Assembly (NCBI RefSeq): GCF_036924595.1
Contig: NZ_JAZHRV010000001.1
Location: forward strand, 1,054,001 to 1,118,000
DNA: 64,000 nucleotides
Reading direction: 5' to 3'
From: Bradyrhizobium algeriense
GTDB lineage: Bacteria; Pseudomonadota; Alphaproteobacteria; Rhizobiales; Xanthobacteraceae
Shown: positions 16,848 through 24,949 of the stretch, in pieces
How positions within the stretch are numbered: the first letter of the stretch is position 1
Layout of the letters: each line of letters opens with the position of its first letter
The notes under the pieces: generated by a model
Database searches by the model: none
What the model saw: the letters and a program-made list of their open reading frames with translations, nothing else
Told to the model about the DNA's origin: nothing
Position numbers and translations under genes: made by a program

Positions 16848-17840
16848 TTAGTCGTTCGACCGCGGCGCCGTGATTGCCTTGCGGATCGCTGTGAGCGGCG
16901 CGGTGTCGTCGAATTCGAGATCTTCGCCAATCCGCTTCAGTCCGAGGTCGCGCCAGAGCGCAGCAAGATCTGGCGTCACCGGCTTCGGCCCCATCTCGTC
17001 GTGGAGCCGGGTCAGCACGTCGACGCCGACGGCCTTGTCAGCGGTTGCAAGAATGCGCTCGATCGACCAGTCCTGCTCATGACTGCCGCCGGCGGCGAGC
17101 ACGCCGCGCATCGCGTCCTGTAGCCCGCGGCGATTATTCGTCGCTTTGCGGATTTCGATATCGGCCAGCAGGCAGAACATCGCGCCGCCCCAGTATCTGC
17201 GCCCCCAGGTGGGCGTGTTGTCGAGGCCCTGGTCGCCGGCCTGCGGCAAACCTTTGGGCATGTCGCGCATCATCGCCTGCCAGATTTCACGCTCGTTAAG
17301 GTCTCCGGCCTGCACCCGCGCGACCGGCTCGACATAGACGGCCAGTCCTTCCGACAGCCATGCGTAGCGATCGGGCATGTCGGGCAGGGCGGTATGCACC
17401 ATCTCGTGCACCATCACCCAGTCGCGCTGCAAGACATCCTCGGTGGAATCGCGGCCGAGCGGAATGCGAATGGCGGCGCCGCGATAGCCCCACGTCGTGC
17501 CGCCGCGGATGCGCCCGCCATCGACGGGCACCAATAATAGCCGCAGCGAGGCGACGGGAAACCGCCCGTAATAGGTCGTGACGGCCCGGGCCGACATCCT
17601 GATCCAGCCGAGCAGTTTTTCCCTGGGGAGTGCGATGTCGCCCGGCGCGAACGCGACATGGATGGTGCCGCCAGGCACTTCAAGATCGGTCCTGGGCAGC
17701 CGGTCGAACGCATCGTAGGGCATGCGGTCGCCGCGCATATATTCCGATTGCGCGTCGGCGCGGAACGATAGGGCGCTTGCCAGCATCGCGGCGAGGACGG
17801 CGGCAGCAACGGTCCAGCGAAAGGCGCCGGCGGATTTCAT
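16848..17840 (-). CDS. Exported HExxH metallopeptidase-like protein
   Basis: A 330-aa protein with an N-terminal signal peptide or anchor (WTVAAAVLAAMLASALSFRADA). The zinc-binding motif is VMVHEMVHTALPDMPDRYAWLSEGLAVYVEP at about residues 143-173: HEMVH is the HExxH pair, and the Glu in WLSEGLAVY is the third ligand of a gluzincin (peptidase MA-like fold). No specific substrate family is recognised. Its ATG overlaps the last four bases of the creatininase-like gene, which itself starts 17 bases after bufC, so it is the last gene of the bufferin transcript. A processing or clean-up peptidase role in the periplasm is an inference from this position. Confidence 0.75.
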   Translation of the reverse strand: MKSAGAFRWTVAAAVLAAMLASALSFRADAQSEYMRGDRMPYDAFDRLPRTDLEVPGGTIHVAFAPGDIALPREKLLGWIRMSARAVTTYYGRFPVASLRLLLVPVDGGRIRGGTTWGYRGAAIRIPLGRDSTEDVLQRDWVMVHEMVHTALPDMPDRYAWLSEGLAVYVEPVARVQAGDLNEREIWQAMMRDMPKGLPQAGDQGLDNTPTWGRRYWGGAMFCLLADIEIRKATNNRRGLQDAMRGVLAAGGSHEQDWSIERILATADKAVGVDVLTRLHDEMGPKPVTPDLAALWRDLGLKRIGEDLEFDDTAPLTAIRKAITAPRSND

Positions 17841-18625
17841 CGCAGCACGCTTTGCACTACGGCAGGTCGGTGCTGCTCGGTGCCTTGCGCGATGAAGGCG
17901 GCGGCCTGTTCGTGGAGATCGTCAAGCATGGCGGCGAGCAAGGCTTCGCCCTTGGCCGATGTCGCCCGCGTCGGATCGCCATAGCTGCCGGAGCGGCTGT
18001 AGTTCGGTGAATTCGGGTCCGACGGTGTTAATGCGCCCGGCGTCCCCTGTTTCAGCTCAGGGCTGGCTTCGGCGCGCGTCATGTCGACCACGTGCGGCGC
18101 CAACGCCAGCATCAGCGACGTTTCCAGTTCGTCGGCATGGCTGCCGTGGCTCTGCTCGGCCAATTGCCTGGCCACGCGGGGATAGCGCGGACCTTCGTGG
18201 ATCCACAAATGCTTGATCCGCTCGCTGGCGAGGCGCGCCAGGGCGCGGTCTACCGGCGCCAGCGTGCTGATCCCGGTATTGAGCACGAGCAGCTTTGGGC
18301 ATGCGCTGCCGAGAATCTGCCCCGCCACCTCGCGCACGAGCGCCTCGAAGGTCGAAATCGAAAGGCTGCTGCTGCCGGCATATTCGACGAAGGCGGGGTA
18401 ATGGCCATAGGTCAGCGTCGGCCAGATCAGCGCGTCGATTTTTTCCGCCATCCGGCCGGCGAGCCATTCGGCCTGAATGCGGTCGGTATTGAGGGGGAGG
18501 TGGAAGCCGTGCTGCTTGGCCGCGGCGCCGATCGGCAATATGGCCACCGCGCCATCATTGATGCGCTGCGCGACTTCGTCCCAATGCATGCGCTCGATGA
18601 AATGGCGATCGGTGTCTATTCCCAT
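17837..18625 (-). CDS. Divergent creatininase-family protein
   Basis: A 262-aa protein with the creatininase fold motifs AILPIGAAAKQHGFHLPLNTD (residues 29-49) and SHADELETSLMLALAPHVVD. In the typical family the first motif reads xEQHGxHLPLxTD and its Glu and His bind metal; here the Glu is Lys (AKQHG). The usual VNGHGGN loop, which supplies another metal His, reads VLNTGISTLAP. Some ligands (His in KQHG, Asp of NTD, Glu of DELETS) remain. The active site is therefore altered or the protein is a non-catalytic relative. The creatininase family includes MftE, which trims the mycofactocin precursor; here the gene begins 17 bases after bufC in a RiPP operon. Confidence 0.8.
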   Translation of the reverse strand: MGIDTDRHFIERMHWDEVAQRINDGAVAILPIGAAAKQHGFHLPLNTDRIQAEWLAGRMAEKIDALIWPTLTYGHYPAFVEYAGSSSLSISTFEALVREVAGQILGSACPKLLVLNTGISTLAPVDRALARLASERIKHLWIHEGPRYPRVARQLAEQSHGSHADELETSLMLALAPHVVDMTRAEASPELKQGTPGALTPSDPNSPNYSRSGSYGDPTRATSAKGEALLAAMLDDLHEQAAAFIAQGTEQHRPAVVQSVLR

Positions 18626-18642: not shown

Positions 18643-19428
18643 TTATGAACCGACGGAAACATCCGTCAAAAGTCCTGCCGTGATCCAGCCGTGCAGATAG
18701 CCCGCGCCGCGGCCCGCCGCGCTGTCGGGATCGTCATAGGTAGCTAGCATTTCGCAGAGCACGCCAAACGGAATGCCGTTCGCGGCCTCGTCCCACATCA
18801 TCGCCTCTTCCGCCGAAAGTTCGCGGAACATCGGCGTGACGTCCTGGCGCCAGATCAGGAGATGCGCGGGCTGCTGCAGCCCGGTCGCGTCCGGCGGCGC
18901 CTCGTCGTTCTTGAGCGCAAGCCAGATTGCAGCCGCATTGGTCGCAACGTCGAGCCGGAATGCAGTGGGATGCGGCCGGAATCGGAGGCCCGACCATGCT
19001 TCGGGCGCAAAGCCTGCCATGTCGGTCAACGCGACGATCTTGCCTTCCGCGGCGTCGAAGGCGTCGTTGAGCGCCTTTTCGAGTGCGGCGAGATCGGACA
19101 GCTCGGGATGGTCGGAGTAGGGGGCGGTCGATTTGAGGAACGCCGGCAGGCCTTGCGAGAACCAGCGCAGGTTCGGATGCCCGGACGGGCGCGCCTTGAC
19201 GTAAGCGTGGCCCATCTCATCGAACACCTCGTCGCCGAGATAAAGATGCAGCAGCTCATGGTCGTTGCGCATGGCCTCGACCAGCCGCGAGCCATAGGCA
19301 TAGCGATAGACGCCGAACAGCACCTCGCGCTTCTCCCGCGGGCTGTCGAGGATTTCAGCCAGCACCTTTTCGTCGCCATCAAGGATGCCGCGCTGAAACT
19401 CGGCCTGCTGTCGCGCGAAGTCGCTCAT
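18643..19428 (-). CDS. bufC: DUF2063 protein, bufferin maturation partner
   Basis: A 261-aa protein of the DUF2063 (HvfC/BufC) family. The N-terminal domain MSDFARQQAEFQRGILDGD...YRYAYGSRLVEAMRNDHELLHLYLGDEVFDEM carries the helical DUF2063 signature. The C-terminal half (WSGLRFRPHPTAFRLDVATN, LLIWRQDVTPMFRELSAEEA) resembles the domain that in this family delivers the peptide substrate to the MNIO enzyme. Its ATG overlaps the bufB stop (ATGA), giving tight translational coupling. Known bufferin clusters have the order precursor, bufB, bufC, exactly as here. Role inferred: RiPP recognition during conversion of precursor Cys residues. Confidence 0.88.
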   Translation of the reverse strand: MSDFARQQAEFQRGILDGDEKVLAEILDSPREKREVLFGVYRYAYGSRLVEAMRNDHELLHLYLGDEVFDEMGHAYVKARPSGHPNLRWFSQGLPAFLKSTAPYSDHPELSDLAALEKALNDAFDAAEGKIVALTDMAGFAPEAWSGLRFRPHPTAFRLDVATNAAAIWLALKNDEAPPDATGLQQPAHLLIWRQDVTPMFRELSAEEAMMWDEAANGIPFGVLCEMLATYDDPDSAAGRGAGYLHGWITAGLLTDVSVGS

Positions 19429-20330
19429 CCCGTCTGCTTGCCTGCCGGCAGAATTTTTTCGGCCATCTCGCGGGTCCTGGCAATCTCGATCAGCAGTTCG
19501 TCGAGCGGCGGAATGTTGTCGTCGCGCTCGATCATGGTCGAGACCCGGCCAAAGCGTTTCAGGGCTGCGGCATAGAGCTCCCAGACATCCTCGCACACCG
19601 GGTGGTCGTGGGTGTCGATGATATGGGTGCCCATGTGGCTGTGGCCGGCCATGTGAAACTGCACCACGCGATCCGCCGGAATTCCATTGAGGAAGGTCAT
19701 GGGATCGTAGCCGTGGTTGAAGGCGCTGACATAGACGTTGTTGACGTCGAACAACAGCCAGCATCCGGCGCGTCGCGACAACTCGGACAGGAATTCCCAT
19801 TCCGGCATTTCGGAATTGTTGAACTGAACGTAGGTCGAGACATTCTCCAGCACGATGGCGCGGCCGAGGAAGTCCTGCACCAGCTGGACGCGGCTGACGA
19901 CGTGATCGAGCGCTTCCTTCGTGTAAGGAATCGGCAAGAGATCATGCAGGTTCTTGCCGTGGACGCCGGTCCAGCATAGATGGTCCGACACCCATTTCGG
20001 CTCGACGCGCTTGGCGAGATCCTTCAAGGCTTGCAGATATTCGAAATTCGGCGGCGCGGTGGAGGCGATCGACATCGACACGCCGTGCATCACCACGGGA
20101 TAGCGTTCGCAAATGCGATCGAGCGTGCGCAGCGGTTGGCCGCCGGGCAGCATGTAATTTTCGCTGATGACCTCGAACCAGTCGATCGGCGGATTGCCGC
20201 CCAGGATTTCGTCGTAATGCTGGTGGCGCAGGCCGAGCCCGAAACCGAGGAAGGGCGGCTTGGCCGATGTCGCCGGACGGTCTGCAAGCGCGGCCGCCGA
20301 AGTGTCTGGCAATCTGCTCGCGACGTTCAT
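19425..20330 (-). CDS. bufB: MNIO (DUF692) iron enzyme of the bufferin pathway
   Basis: A 301-aa TIM-barrel protein of the multinuclear non-heme iron oxidase (DUF692) family. Expected metal ligands are visible in order: HGVSMSI (His), WVSDHLCW (Asp/His), IVLENVSTYVQF (Glu), LFDVNNVYVSAFNHGYD (Asp, Asn, His), FHMAGHSHMG (His), IDTHDHPVCEDVWELY (Asp/His) and STMIERDDNIP (Glu). Known relatives oxidise Cys residues in a precursor peptide to thio-heterocycles, giving copper-binding bufferins. GGAGACGAG before the ATG at 20330 supports this start; an upstream start would add 19 non-conserved residues. It lies between the precursor genes and bufC. Confidence 0.92.
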   Translation of the reverse strand: MNVASRLPDTSAAALADRPATSAKPPFLGFGLGLRHQHYDEILGGNPPIDWFEVISENYMLPGGQPLRTLDRICERYPVVMHGVSMSIASTAPPNFEYLQALKDLAKRVEPKWVSDHLCWTGVHGKNLHDLLPIPYTKEALDHVVSRVQLVQDFLGRAIVLENVSTYVQFNNSEMPEWEFLSELSRRAGCWLLFDVNNVYVSAFNHGYDPMTFLNGIPADRVVQFHMAGHSHMGTHIIDTHDHPVCEDVWELYAAALKRFGRVSTMIERDDNIPPLDELLIEIARTREMAEKILPAGKQTG

Positions 20331-20438
20331 CTCGTCTCCGCTCGAACGGCACCGCCATACAATGCGTGTCCCAAACTGTGCCGTCAACCTAGCATGGATG
20401 CGAGGCCCGGCCTACACCGGGCCCCGATGGGACCGCCA

Positions 20439-20696
20439 CTAGGACGGCATGAACTTGCCCTTGGCGGCGTCGCACTTTTCCTTGGTCATGGCCGAGAAGC
20501 CCTGGCCCTTGCAGGCGTTCTGGCCCTTGCAGGCATTTGCCCCGCCCTTGCATGCGCTCTGGCCCTTGCAGGCGTTGGCGCCGACGCACTTGCCTTCGCC
20601 GGCTGCGTAGGTAGGGCTCGACATGGTGGCGCCCGCCAGGAACAGGGTGGCTGCGGCGGCGGCAATGGCGGTGCCGGACTTGGATGTCATCTTCAT
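20439..20696 (-). CDS. bufA: Bufferin-type Cys-rich precursor peptide, copy 1
   Basis: An 85-aa exported peptide. It has a signal peptide (KSGTAIAAAAATLFLAGATM, cleaved near TYA-AG) followed by a core with six Cys at residues 37, 43, 49, 56, 62 and 75. Four of them lie in ACKG repeats (NACKGQSACKG, then NACKGQNACKG), and the last is in KEKCDAAKG. This matches BufA (DUF2282-like) precursors whose core Cys residues are modified by the MNIO enzyme encoded next. GGAGG lies six bases upstream of the ATG. The copy at 20894 is nearly identical across the repeat core. Likely role: binding copper or another thiophilic metal in the periplasm. Confidence 0.9.
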   Translation of the reverse strand: MKMTSKSGTAIAAAAATLFLAGATMSSPTYAAGEGKCVGANACKGQSACKGGANACKGQNACKGQGFSAMTKEKCDAAKGKFMPS

Positions 20697-20845
20697 GGGT
20701 ATCCTCCAAAAGAAGTGAGAGGGTGCATCGCCCGCAAGCCGCGACAGTTCCAGCCGACAAACGGCACCCGAAGGTAGTTACGCGGTGGATCTGGCCCTGG
20801 TTACGCGCGGGGCCGAATTTATTTCAGCCGCCGGATCGAAACAAC

Positions 20846-20873
20846 GAGGGCCCGGCAGCAGCGCCGAGCCCTC
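20846..20873 (-). terminator. GC-rich hairpin between the two precursor genes
   Basis: On the minus strand, GAGGGCTCGGC pairs with GCCGGGCCCTC (one G-T wobble) about 21 bases after the stop of precursor copy 2; GTTGTTTC follows. It may act as a partial terminator or RNA stabiliser, keeping the precursor mRNA more abundant than the enzyme mRNA. A similar GGGCCCGG...CCGGGCCT hairpin, without a T-run, lies at about 20402-20424 between copy 1 and bufB. Confidence 0.45.
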
Positions 20874-20893
20874 CCTCGCACCTGGTCCGCCGA

Positions 20894-21157
20894 TCAACCC
20901 TTGACGAACTTGGCACCCTTGGCGGCGCACTCCTTTTCGGAGGCCATCGAGAAGCCGGTGCCCTTGCAGGCGTTCTGGCCCTTGCAGGCATTGGCCCCGC
21001 CCTTGCAAGCGCTCTGGCCCTTGCAGGCGTTGCCGGCCATGCACTTGCCCGCAGCGGCGTTCGCTGATGTCGACACTGTCGACACCACCGAGCCGGCGAG
21101 GAACAGGGTGGCAGCGGCAGCGGCAAGCGTCGCACCGGACTTGGAATTCAACTTCAT
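20894..21157 (-). CDS. bufA: Bufferin-type Cys-rich precursor peptide, copy 2
   Basis: An 87-aa paralogue of the next gene and the first gene of the cluster. It has a signal peptide (KSGATLAAAAATLFLAGSVV), cleavage near NAAAG, and six Cys at residues 39, 45, 51, 58, 64 and 77 with the same four ACKG units and a terminal KECAAKGAKF. The two precursors are identical through the whole repeat core and differ in the signal peptide, the spacer (ADVDTV-like versus none) and the C-terminal tail, pointing to a tandem duplication. GAGGAG lies six bases before the ATG at 21157. An ECF-like promoter lies about 165 bases upstream. Confidence 0.9.
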   Translation of the reverse strand: MKLNSKSGATLAAAAATLFLAGSVVSTVSTSANAAAGKCMAGNACKGQSACKGGANACKGQNACKGTGFSMASEKECAAKGAKFVKG

Positions 21158-21321: not shown

Positions 21322-21347
21322 TACGGGGCATCGGGCGATTTGGTTAC
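21322..21347 (-). promoter_or_regulatory. Putative ECF-sigma promoter of the bufferin operon
   Basis: On the minus strand GTAACC (21347-21342) is followed by exactly 16 bases and CGTA (21325-21322). This resembles extracytoplasmic-function sigma promoters (GTAACC, N16, CG-rich -10); SigF-type ECF factors control related clusters in Caulobacter. The -10 lies about 165 bases before the first precursor ATG. The surrounding 380-base interval (21158-21538) contains an AT-rich run (AAAGAAAATTTTCTTTTTTTC) and no gene. No sigma factor gene is in the window. Confidence 0.35.
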
Positions 21348-21538: not shown

Positions 21539-23323
21539 CTATCCACGCACAGGTTTCAGCCTTGCCATCTGCGCAACCGTGGCCCGCAACTCCTCGGCAT
21601 TGAAGGAGGGAAACGAACAGATGCGGTTGCTGCAGGCGAACGCCGCGGGTTCGCCAAGGTCGGGATATTCGACGTCGGAGTTGGGCAGCTTGCCCTCGCG
21701 CAGATCGAGCCACTCCAGCCGCTTGTAGCGGGCCGGCAGCGCGCGGGCCAGGGCATGCAAGCTTTTCGCGCGGGCGTCGTCCTTGTGTCCGACGATTGTC
21801 ATGTGGGTCGGCTCGGCCGCGAGTTCTTCGTCGGCGAGCAGGACGCCGGGTACGGGACGCATCATTCCGGCCGCGGCACTGGCGAGATAGCGCATCGCGT
21901 GCGCGGCGTGCTCGCGATAGGTCTCGCTGCCGAAGTAGCGGTTGAGCAGGTTCGTGAACCTTGCGACCTGCACCTGGTCGTCAATCAGCTTGGCGGGTTT
22001 TGCGAGCACGCCGGTCTTGCCTTCCGCGGTCTTCGAGGTCACGAAGCCGCCGGCCTCATCCCGGAAGGTCGCGACGAAATCGCCGGCCTTGGCGGCGGCG
22101 GTGAGCCAGTTGCGACTTCCCGTGGCGGCATAGAGATCGAGGAAGGCCTGGCCCATCGAGAGCGTGTCGGCCAGAAATGGTCCGCCGCGATCCTTCTCGC
22201 CATGACGGAAACCGCCATCCGGCAGCGCGCGGTTGTCGATCACCCATTTCGCAGCGCGTTCCGCGACCGCCAGCACCTTGGGATCATTGGTAACGTTGTA
22301 GTACGCGGCAAGTCCTGAAATGGCCCAGCCATTTTCGCGCGCGTATAAATTCTTGTCGATGCGCGGCATGCCCAGTTTGCGGCGCTCGCCGTCCGGGAGC
22401 GCGTAATATTTGTGCCCATCGGTATCGTGGTCGAGATCGGCGTCCTGGCTGACATAGAACGCACCGTCAGGGCTGGTCAAAAACTCCGCGAGATAGCGTT
22501 CGATGTTGCGTGCTGCGGCAAGATATTTTGGATCCTTCCACAGCGCATAGGCCTGGCTGTACTGCCGGAGATATTGCGCCTGGAACGACATGATCTTTTC
22601 GAAATGCGCGCGGGTCCAGGAGCCGCCTTCGGAATACTGGTACACGCCGCCCCATACCGGATCGATCAGCGCGATAGCGGCATCCAGGGTCTGCCGGGCG
22701 CGCTTGATTGCCACGGCGTCGCCGGCCTCGGCGCGGGTGATCGCAAGATCCATGCTGTCGGCGTCGATGAATTTCTGGTTCTCGCCCCAGCCGCCGAGTT
22801 TTTCCTCGTAGGATTCGTCGACATTCTTCGTCAACGCGGCGCGCTGCGCCTTGTCGAGGAAGGCCGAGGTCGACGGCTTGACCTCAAAGGCTTCGCCGAC
22901 CGACGGTCCGGGTGAGGGATCGTCGATGATCGCCTTGAGAAGCGCCTGCATCCGCTCCGGCTCGATATAGCCCCTGATCTTGGCGATCTCGGTGCCGTCG
23001 GGGCCGAACACGATGGTCGCCGGCCAGCCCCAGTCACCATAGCGGCTCGACAGATCCGGGTTGGCGTCCTGATCGACCCGCACCGGCAGATATTTCGCGG
23101 CGAGCAATTCCCTGACCTCGGGATTGGCGTAGGTCGTCTTCTCCATGACATGGCACCAGTGGCACCACACCGCCTCGAGATCGAGGATGACGAAGCGCTG
23201 CTCGGCCTGCGCGCGGGCGAACAGATCGTCGCTCCATTCACTCCATTTCGGCCCGTCCGAAGCGAACGACGGAGACGCGGCAAAGGCGGCGAGGGCGAAG
23301 GCGGCAAGGCGGACGAGTTTCAT
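21539..23323 (-). CDS. Exported thioredoxin-fold DUF255 protein (YyaL/SSP411-like)
   Basis: About 594 aa. It has a signal peptide (MKLVRLAAFALAAFAASPSF) and an N-terminal thioredoxin-like domain with LEAVWCHWCHVMEKTTYANPEV, the CxxC of the DUF255 family. A long C-terminal alpha/alpha-barrel resembling glycosidase or epimerase folds (for example ENGWAISGLAAYYNVTNDPKVL) follows. Most relatives are 650-700 aa and cytoplasmic; this one is shorter and has an export signal, so it is probably periplasmic. The ATG at 23323 starts the signal peptide. It is read in the same direction as the DoxX gene 90 bases upstream, and CcdA, which supplies electrons to periplasmic thioredoxin folds, is encoded just beyond. 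Confidence 0.82.
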   Translation of the reverse strand: MKLVRLAAFALAAFAASPSFASDGPKWSEWSDDLFARAQAEQRFVILDLEAVWCHWCHVMEKTTYANPEVRELLAAKYLPVRVDQDANPDLSSRYGDWGWPATIVFGPDGTEIAKIRGYIEPERMQALLKAIIDDPSPGPSVGEAFEVKPSTSAFLDKAQRAALTKNVDESYEEKLGGWGENQKFIDADSMDLAITRAEAGDAVAIKRARQTLDAAIALIDPVWGGVYQYSEGGSWTRAHFEKIMSFQAQYLRQYSQAYALWKDPKYLAAARNIERYLAEFLTSPDGAFYVSQDADLDHDTDGHKYYALPDGERRKLGMPRIDKNLYARENGWAISGLAAYYNVTNDPKVLAVAERAAKWVIDNRALPDGGFRHGEKDRGGPFLADTLSMGQAFLDLYAATGSRNWLTAAAKAGDFVATFRDEAGGFVTSKTAEGKTGVLAKPAKLIDDQVQVARFTNLLNRYFGSETYREHAAHAMRYLASAAAGMMRPVPGVLLADEELAAEPTHMTIVGHKDDARAKSLHALARALPARYKRLEWLDLREGKLPNSDVEYPDLGEPAAFACSNRICSFPSFNAEELRATVAQMARLKPVRG

Positions 23324-23413
23324 GGCGGCTCCCGGAAACGCTGGCGTTTCGCCAGCTACGCGGCAGGCGAAATCCGGGCTCAGCTTTTCGGGCGCTGTCA
23401 CAGCATTGTGAGA

Positions 23414-23878
23414 TCAGGTCGATTTCTCACTGCGGCCGGCCGCATTCACCAGCAGCCGGTCCAGTGACACGGCGCCGGGACCGCAGATCGCCAACCACAT
23501 GAAGCCGGCGAAGTAGACTGCCTCCTCGAAGCCGAGCAGCGTCTCCAGCGAATCGACGTCGCCCCATTTCGCCGCCTTGATGGCAACGACCATGACCACC
23601 GCCAGCATCGCGGCCGGGATTCGCGTGAACAGGCCGAGGATCAGCATGGTGCCGCCGAAGAATTCGACGCCGGCTACGAAGGGGGTGAGGATGTTCGGGA
23701 ATGGAATGCCCCAGCCGACAAAATTTTCGGTCACCTGCTCAAGATGGGTGAGCTTGCCCCAGCCGGACAGCATGAAGGTGTAGCCGACGATCAGCCGCAT
23801 GATCAGGGGCCCGGCCCAGGAAAAATACGATGCGATTTGCGCGGGCAGCAGGATGAGCAGATGGACGATGAAATACAT
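23414..23878 (-). CDS. DoxX family membrane protein
   Basis: A 154-aa protein with four predicted helices. The DoxX features are the N-terminal LIMRLIVGYTFMLSGWGKLTHLEQVTENF, a helix in GVEFFGGTMLILGLFTRIPAAMLAVVMVVAI and a C-terminal FAGFMWLAICGPGAVSLDRLL. DoxX proteins are linked to thiosulfate or quinone redox and often accompany MNIO/bufferin clusters and gold- or copper-induced operons. Here DoxX lies two genes upstream of the precursors on the same strand. A direct role in the bufferin pathway is inferred from that association only. Confidence 0.85.
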   Translation of the reverse strand: MYFIVHLLILLPAQIASYFSWAGPLIMRLIVGYTFMLSGWGKLTHLEQVTENFVGWGIPFPNILTPFVAGVEFFGGTMLILGLFTRIPAAMLAVVMVVAIKAAKWGDVDSLETLLGFEEAVYFAGFMWLAICGPGAVSLDRLLVNAAGRSEKST

Positions 23879-24016: not shown

Positions 24017-24748
24017 CTAACCGAAATTTTGCAGTGCGGGGAAAGTCTCCAGCAGCCAGATGCTGATGCTGGTGACGGAACCGGTCAGGAAGCCGATGCC
24101 GGTGATCACCATCAGGATGCCCATGGCATGCTCGACCTTGCCGAGGTGCCGCTTCATCCGCGCGAACAGCGAGGAGAACTGCTCGATCATGAAGGCTGCC
24201 AGCAGGAACGGAATTCCGAGCCCGGCGGAATAGACCGCGAGCAGGCCGGCGCCCTTGGTGACGGTGGCCTCAGCGGCTGCGATCGACAGGATCGCTGCCA
24301 GAATGGGGCCGATGCAGGGCGTCCAGCCGAAGGCGAAGGCGAGGCCCATGGCATAGGCGCCCCACAGGCCGACCGGCTTCGGCATCGTCATCCGTCCCTC
24401 GCGCATCAACAGCCCGATCCGGGTCAGGCCAAGGAAATGCAGGCCCATGATGATGATCACGATGCCGGCCAGGATCGAGAGTTCTGCCGACCAGGCGCGG
24501 ATCAGGCCGCCGATCAGGGAAGCGCTGGCGCCGAGCGCCACGAAGACGGTGGAAAAGCCCAGCACGAACATCAGCGCCGAAGCCATCACCGCCCGCCTGG
24601 AGGTCTTCGCGGTCTCCTCATTGGCGACATGCTCGATGGTCGCGCCGGTGAGATAGATCAGATAGGGCGGCACCAGCGGCAGCACGCAAGGGGACAGGAA
24701 GCTGACGAGACCGGCAATCAGGGCCGCCGGGATGGAAACATCGTGCAT
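24017..24748 (-). CDS. ccdA: Cytochrome c biogenesis protein CcdA (DsbD-like membrane domain)
   Basis: A 243-aa inner-membrane protein of six helices. Its two redox Cys are in the conserved LVSFLSPCVLPLVPPYL (residues 14-30) and AFAFGWTPCIGPILAAIL segments. CcdA moves reducing equivalents from cytoplasmic thioredoxin to periplasmic thiol proteins, for haem attachment or other disulfide reduction. The ATG at 24748 is favoured by GAAGG a few bases upstream and by the position of the first helix. No cytochrome c maturation genes are near; the neighbouring exported DUF255 thioredoxin-fold protein is a possible client. Confidence 0.9.
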   Translation of the reverse strand: MHDVSIPAALIAGLVSFLSPCVLPLVPPYLIYLTGATIEHVANEETAKTSRRAVMASALMFVLGFSTVFVALGASASLIGGLIRAWSAELSILAGIVIIIMGLHFLGLTRIGLLMREGRMTMPKPVGLWGAYAMGLAFAFGWTPCIGPILAAILSIAAAEATVTKGAGLLAVYSAGLGIPFLLAAFMIEQFSSLFARMKRHLGKVEHAMGILMVITGIGFLTGSVTSISIWLLETFPALQNFG

Positions 24749-24949
24749 TGCATGACCTTCGAGAATTGCCACAAGGCATAGCGCCGTACTGGCTTGTACG
24801 GAACAGACAATCGATAAGTTTCGTCGCCATTACGGCTCAAGTTCGGTCACAGAGGCGTGTCCGGGGTGCCGAAACGGCCTCGCGGCTGAAACATACGCTG
24901 GTATGGTCGCGTAAAAGCCGGTAAGCGGCCCCGCGAAACAGGACCCTGC

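Follow-up and report, generated by a model that had tools for sequence, protein, structure and literature searches.

Bufferins are ribosomally synthesised and post-translationally modified peptides (RiPPs); their products bind copper and their cysteines are oxidised to 5-thiooxazoles. The available portions of PMC12452194 already record tandem precursors in bufferin clusters, put additional conserved genes at extremely low proportions, place sigma and NrsF genes in Buf1 and not in Buf2 clusters, and give at most 4 Buf_6-12Cys genes per complete genome. For Caulobacter, the accessible part of PMC3511200 describes a sigma-F motif, GTAACC-N16-CGAA, that drives DUF2282-DUF692-DUF2063 operons, with 5' rapid amplification of cDNA ends for CC2907 and CC3254. 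In the excerpted text of PMC13097082, BufA2B2C2 is the Cys-Lys group, with Asp in place of Phe at the substrate-Lys contact. The locus analysed here lies in a stretch of 64,000 nucleotides of Bradyrhizobium algeriense (contig NZ_JAZHRV010000001.1, positions 1,054,001 to 1,118,000), hereafter the window, to which all coordinates refer. Judged by its family models it belongs to the known BufA2 (Buf2, 'Cys-Lys') type of bufferin loci. We consider it probable that it represents an extended form of such a locus, in which a pair of precursors would be dosed under the control of an extracytoplasmic function (ECF) sigma factor, the peptides would hold copper, and secreted helper proteins would see to their upkeep. 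As a RiPP locus it is unremarkable. What makes this variant worth testing is the promoter element ahead of both precursors, together with the enlarged and recurrent set of genes.

The precursor pair and its age

The initial annotation had proposed a bufferin-type RiPP locus with the order precursor, precursor, multinuclear non-haem iron-dependent oxidative enzyme (MNIO), DUF2063 on one strand. That order was borne out, with all four genes on the minus strand, and the bufferin identity is supported by the equivalog models for BufA2 (NF050166) and BufB (NF050167). The upstream precursor (20894..21157; 87 aa from its ATG) scored 73.5 bits and the downstream precursor (20439..20696; 85 aa) 83.3 bits against the NF050166 cut-off of 60; each has six Cys. 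They are followed by the MNIO enzyme BufB (DUF692/PF05114; 19425..20330; NF050167 386.1 bits, cut-off 310) and by BufC, a DUF2063 partner protein of PME-type 1 (18643..19428; PF09836 60 bits, cut-off 27.2). The bufC and MNIO genes overlap by 4 bases in the window, as BufB and BufC do in 57/62 loci.

Reading both precursors confirmed that the six Cys stand at equal spacing, four of them within ACKG units, and that each protein starts with a hydrophobic segment which, judged by eye, reads as a Sec signal peptide, both as first described. The two had also been called nearly identical; this holds for the core, where the 24 residues NACKGQSACKGGANACKGQNACKG are the same in both, and not for the whole proteins, which are 64% identical. 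A search of the genome (one contig, 8.10 Mb) with the downstream precursor as query recovered these two copies only.

To place the pair in the genus, 265 genomes were searched, of which 108 matched a precursor at E<=0.001 and 75 scored above the BufA2 cut-off. From 74 of these 75, 79 loci were taken, and the window supplied the last, giving 80 loci in which a pattern search found 148 precursors. Two precursors on one strand, 172-266 bp apart, were present in 65 loci from 65 genomes. A 66th pair (L089) fell outside this count, as the pattern required three CK motifs and its upstream copy (L089:6561-6782) has lost two ACKG repeat units, so that four Cys remain; the neighbouring copy is intact. 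The pair has thus been kept in 65/75 BufA2-positive genus genomes, or 66/75 counting L089. In a tree with 14 added relatives, which were a choice from the peptidase-scan loci and the class and family BufA2 loci described below, all 68/68 upstream copies formed one clade with a support of 0.989. These were 64 genus copies and four from L149, L150, L214 and L217, assigned by position; the upstream copy of L071, cut at the contig start, was excluded from the tree as well as from the core-identity, promoter and folding counts (64 loci). The upstream copies also grouped together in a first, smaller tree, with a support of 0.469. The downstream copies form no clade of their own, the best split joining all 65 of them with 15 single or spaced copies. 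By this tree, one old duplication gave rise to the upstream line, which takes in copies from Afipia and other genera outside Bradyrhizobium and has stayed distinct, unless the cluster moved between genera. A duplication that is this old and is kept in 65-66/75 BufA2-positive genomes suggests that retention of both copies was favoured.

The cores of the two lines are rarely the same to the last residue. Leaving out the residue before GF, they were identical at the amino-acid level in 9/65 tandem loci, versus 3.7% upon random pairing; exact core identity is the exception among tandem loci. At the DNA level, the core was more alike within a genome than between genomes (0.881 versus 0.862, z 8.07; 64 loci), and the signal-peptide segment of the precursor genes showed no such excess (z -0.03; between-genome identity 0.802). 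Synonymous codons alone gave 0.832 against a shuffled mean of 0.808 (65 loci), a value reached in 0/300 shuffles, with shuffling that controls incompletely for relatedness. The core excess was only 0.003 among close relatives (BufB distance <=0.06) and up to 0.021 in distant pairs. These data fit rare and short conversion in the core atop strong constraint; on the sequence comparison, the cores are alike mostly through constraint, to which weak concerted evolution adds within the core alone. The excess within genomes, both in the core and at synonymous codons, would also be compatible with a window pair that owes its identical cores to duplication or gene conversion in the recent past, but we regard this as most improbable, given that the duplication is old, as the upstream clade indicates, that the excess amounts to about 2%, and that it is lacking from the signal-peptide segment. 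A recent duplication as such was rejected, the upstream copies making up one old clade across the tandem loci.

A number of loci deviate from the common form. In L104 (6046-6765) the fourth CKG has become CKS in both paralogues alike, a pattern that transfer of core changes from one copy to the other would produce. L153/L217 carries three tandem precursors, one of the upstream type and two near-identical ones of the downstream type. One genome (G230; loci L080, L107, L108 and L109) has nine BufA2 matches, six of them above the cut-off, several distant from a close bufB; the maximum that PMC12452194 gives for complete genomes is 4.

Promoter-like elements and hairpins

On the minus strand, the promoter-like element GTAACC-N16-CGTA stands before each precursor of the window. 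The one before the upstream precursor (21322..21347) is exact in 62/64 tandem loci. The one before the downstream precursor (20779..20804) is exact in 14/64 and present with at most one mismatch in 37/64, where 34 of the 37 loci place it 105-111 nt from the ATG; shuffled regions came within one mismatch of the element in 2/1280 cases. It resembles the Caulobacter sigma-F promoter, sharing the -35 and the 16-bp spacing of GTAACC-N16-CGAA and having CGTA at -10. The whole 8.1-Mb genome holds five exact sites, two of which are at this locus (a reversed control pattern gave 13 sites), and no bufferin-like open reading frame was found within 400 nt of the other three (L226, L229 and L230). The shorter form GTAACC-N16-CG was exact in 9/62 precursor regions of other loci, a count that takes two loci twice (L149/L215 and L153/L217); one of the nine (L196) lies outside the family, and most class loci lack the form.

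NrsF genes were divided into two types by E-value; L239, a CcdA position, does not enter the NrsF comparison. At L225, one of the genome's two NrsF loci, a sigma-like gene (named by eye) has the CGAA form 17 nt in front of it, and the sigma-like genes of the nine other high-scoring NrsF loci examined are preceded by it as well. Co-occurrence of NrsF itself was uninformative as a pointer to the regulator, NrsF being present in 262/265 genus genomes. In the NrsF loci L218-L223 and L246 a second GTAACC-N16-CGAA site was seen about 30-40 nt past nrsF; in L218-L223 it precedes a small secreted-looking protein of 84-102 aa.

Both precursor genes are followed by hairpin-forming sequence on the minus strand. 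A GC-rich inverted repeat could be read past the upstream precursor (20846..20873); 13 relatives fold there at -14.7 to -31.4 kcal/mol, and the 45-nt piece taken from the window stops inside the repeat. The GC-rich hairpin past the downstream precursor (20401..20426) folds at -24.2 kcal/mol in the window, with a 9-bp consensus of -16.6 kcal/mol in 24/26 prepared loci, L051 and L059 having been excluded from the alignment.

Neighbouring genes within and beyond the genus

Five further genes on the minus strand flank the bufferin genes. The gene for a creatininase-family protein (17837..18625; PF02633 159 bits) starts 17 bp past bufC and shares a 4-base overlap with that for a secreted HEMVH...E protein (16848..17840), an overlap found in 47/53 loci. 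On the other side lie the genes for a secreted DUF255/Thioredox_DsbH protein with a WCHWC motif (21539..23401; PF03190), whose true start is probably an internal ATG ahead of the signal-like segment, for a DoxX family protein (23414..23878; PF07681; 65.8 bits with the HvfX family model, under its cut-off of 80) and for a CcdA/DsbD-TM-like protein (24017..24772; PF02683), a common neighbour. The DUF255 gene thus stands between DoxX and bufA. The HEMVH protein had no Pfam or NCBIfam match at E<=0.01. Its AlphaFold2 model (pLDDT, the predicted local distance difference test, 78.5) found M61 and M1 aminopeptidases as best PDB matches, with a best E of 3.9e-8 and query template-modelling scores of 0.39-0.53 among the 50 matches listed, and the HExxH, downstream Glu and gluzincin-like fold looked for in M61/M1 enzymes are all present. 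We describe it as a predicted M61/M1-like peptidase. The signature HEMVH...WLSEGLA occurs in 66/67 copies, the remaining one being a 110-aa piece. WCHWC was found in 58/63 DUF255 copies of the genus loci (one has WCKWC, and the motif is missing from three short pieces and from one further reading) and in 9/9 distant loci read, each time past a signal-like segment. One database protein of 517 aa (P0078) combines creatininase and peptidase-like parts; as the two genes overlap by 4 bases, this fusion may be a frameshift artefact.

Among the 65 tandem loci we found BufB in 65, BufC in 62, DUF255 and the peptidase-like gene in 61 each, DoxX in 60, CcdA in 59 and creatininase in 54. The loci without BufC (three) and without the peptidase (four) are on short or cut contigs. 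No DUF255 match was found in the 14.7 kb of L057, and in L054 this gene lies about 8 kb further away; eight loci (L034, L035, L041, L051, L067, L096, L098 and L099) have the peptidase gene without the creatininase. Genome-wide, the peptidase-like gene occurred in 70/265 genus genomes, all 70 of them BufA2-positive (Fisher 1e-58), and DUF255 at E<=1e-100 in 65/265, again all 65 BufA2-positive (Fisher 1e-51; one of them, G178, has only a 44% paralogue elsewhere), p-values that overstate independence given the relatedness of the genomes. In five divergent BufA2 loci (L040, L056, L061, L105 and L106) a different CcdA-like protein, with 28-30% identity, was seen near DoxX.

Beyond the genus, a peptidase scan was taken to the best 80 loci of a longer list, and gene contents were read in 47/80, the other 33 bearing Bradyrhizobium names. 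In the 47, peptidase relatives of at least 60% identity adjoin bufferin genes in Afipia, Hyphomicrobiales metagenome-assembled genomes (MAGs), Methylobacterium haplocladii (L164) and a Rudaea MAG (L155). The exceptions are L176, which is truncated by the end of its contig, and L148, whose 4.6-kb contig shows no bufferin gene across 1.4 kb upstream and 2.3 kb downstream. A second comparison started from BufA2: 21/385 class genomes, the window genome included, were above the cut-off, and the other 20 supplied 22 loci, to which four above-cut-off loci from family genomes outside the genus were added (three of these four are also among the peptidase-scan loci). All four family loci carry DUF255, creatininase, peptidase, DoxX and CcdA. 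In the 22 class loci, DUF255 was present in 7 (47-51% identity), peptidase in 5 (32-40%) and creatininase in 4, in varying order and strand. The 20 whole genomes gave 17 DUF255, 16 peptidase and 19 creatininase rows, of which 7/17 (the seven best), 5/16 and 4/19, respectively, fall in BufA2 loci; in G331, two of the DUF255 rows appear to be pieces of a single broken gene. By simple arithmetic, a given gene copy would fall by chance into a stretch of about 16 kb in a genome of 4-5 Mb with a probability of <1%.

Dose, tailoring and proposed upkeep of the peptides

In the extended locus as we picture it, envelope or metal stress would activate an ECF-type sigma factor which, to go by the motif, reads GTAACC-N16-CGTA before each precursor. 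Both precursors would then be made in excess over the enzymes, perhaps aided by the hairpin past each gene, and BufB and BufC would, as in the family at large, convert the four central ACKG cysteines into 5-thiooxazoles by oxidation, ahead of export. Sec would carry the peptides out, and in the periplasm they would hold copper, likewise in keeping with the family. Co-inheritance suggests that the secreted WCHWC protein, perhaps fed via DoxX or CcdA, maintains the thiol redox state of the bufferin, and that the secreted M61-like peptidase and the creatininase-like protein trim or turn over the peptides; we put forward these helper roles of DUF255, peptidase and creatininase as working hypotheses. 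The two precursors would mainly raise the dose of one shared core chemistry.

Several observations weigh against this picture. Within 22 kb around the locus the promoter-like element occurs only before the precursors and not before DUF255, DoxX or CcdA, so that co-regulation of these genes with the precursors is not supported, and in 27/64 loci no second element is found within one mismatch. Eight of the BufA2-positive genomes carry only one NrsF, of the lower-scoring type, and the 4.6 kb inspected there held no GTAACC-N16-CG site. Covariation in the downstream hairpin is almost nil in the 24-locus alignment, and the 45-nt pieces of L051 and L059 fold weakly there (-13.7 and -6.8 kcal/mol). 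A CcdA match at E<=1e-40 is present in 264/265 genus genomes; being a genus core gene, its adjacency to the locus says little, and CcdA was rejected as a specific partner. In the 47 loci read, peptidase relatives at <=57% identity had no bufferin genes nearby, and a match is missing from 15 (DUF255), 17 (peptidase) and 18 (creatininase) of the 22 class loci, several of which are cut by contig ends.

A more modest explanation is a plain two-precursor bufferin cluster, in which the DUF255, creatininase and peptidase genes serve some other role and are merely co-inherited as neighbours on an island, be it mobile or ancestral. It would agree with the extremely low proportions of additional conserved genes given in the available text of PMC12452194, the shared descent of the Bradyrhizobium loci reduces 65 or 70 genomes to far fewer independent events, and four class genomes also have creatininase-peptidase pairs at a distance from bufferin loci. 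Against it, DUF255 and peptidase genes reappear next to BufA2 in distant genomes of the class, with a different order and strand, and likewise in M. haplocladii and the Rudaea MAG; we think this explanation rather unlikely. About equally doubtful is the possibility that the precursors are two tailored forms, which share the modified core and differ in signal peptide, in the surroundings of Cys1 and Cys6 and in the tail, and which would serve different places, metals or partners. The upstream line has stayed distinct, Afipia and other non-Bradyrhizobium copies included; residues around Cys1, Cys6 and in the tail are specific to each line across the genus precursor loci; and each copy has its own promoter-like element in 37/64 loci. 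Set against this, the core, which holds the Cys that are modified in the family, differs less from line to line than the signal peptide does (identity 0.862 versus 0.802 between genomes), it has undergone weak concerted evolution, and the extra copies in L153/L217 look like plain amplification.

The initial annotation had read the duplicated precursor with its conserved core as a sign that dose, or two tailored forms, matters. This reading is supported in part. The pair is old and kept in a way that points to favoured retention; an identical core is not peculiar to this pair and mostly reflects general constraint with weak concerted evolution. Neither the promoter-like elements nor the neighbouring genes figured in that annotation. 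Between the two options, the promoter element and hairpin-forming sequence at each window precursor fit dose, although the patchy occurrence of the second element and the line-specific residues at Cys1 and Cys6 leave room for tailoring.

Bufferins are widespread, and the bufferin literature covered here, as far as its accessible text goes, does not describe their fate after export. Should the secreted redox and peptidase-like proteins that are inherited along with bufferins indeed act on them, this fate would become testable. From the promoter element one can predict concretely when a Buf2 locus without a sigma gene of its own switches on, and the kept precursor pair is a natural test of dose versus tailoring. 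More speculatively, and we would not rate the idea as likely, some bufferins might be the core of a periplasmic upkeep system, with thiol reset of the modified peptide by a secreted WCxxC protein, trimming or recycling by a secreted M61-like peptidase and a creatininase-family partner, and an ECF-type promoter for each precursor, rather than passive copper sponges. No report of DUF255 or peptidase helper genes with bufferins was found in a literature search that left out most subscription journals. A purely functional analogy is offered by the Scs/DsbD-type periplasmic thiol systems, which pair a membrane electron carrier with a periplasmic CxxC protein and are linked to copper tolerance; here the CxxC protein is DUF255 and the substrate would be a RiPP.

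Among described clusters, the locus is most like Buf2 (BufA2, Buf_6/12Cys) in the available portions of PMC12452194, with which it shares the six-Cys precursor with signal peptide, the MNIO, the DUF2063 partner, DoxX and tandem precursors; it differs in its stable old pair, the ECF-type promoter element before each precursor and the co-inherited DUF255 and M61-like genes. The Caulobacter operons CC2907-2905 and CC3254-3257, as presented in the accessible part of PMC3511200, have the same precursor-MNIO-DUF2063(-DoxX) order, the -35 GTAACC and the 16-bp spacing, but their precursors are DUF2282 (Buf1), their -10 is CGAA where CGTA is found here, and a sigma factor with its negative regulator is encoded beside one of the operons, which is not so in the window. 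Finally, the captophorins of the Lys-Cys type, represented by fontiphorin in the excerpted text of PMC13097082, likewise combine an MNIO with a DUF2063 partner that make 5-thiooxazoles on Cys. Fontiphorin has EGKCG repeats and FonB a Phe at the substrate-Lys contact, whereas the window has ACKG repeats and the motif ERDDNIP, present in 70/77 BufB matches when those from cut and from distant loci are counted too, which, read by eye rather than from an alignment to FonB, agrees with an Asp at that contact.

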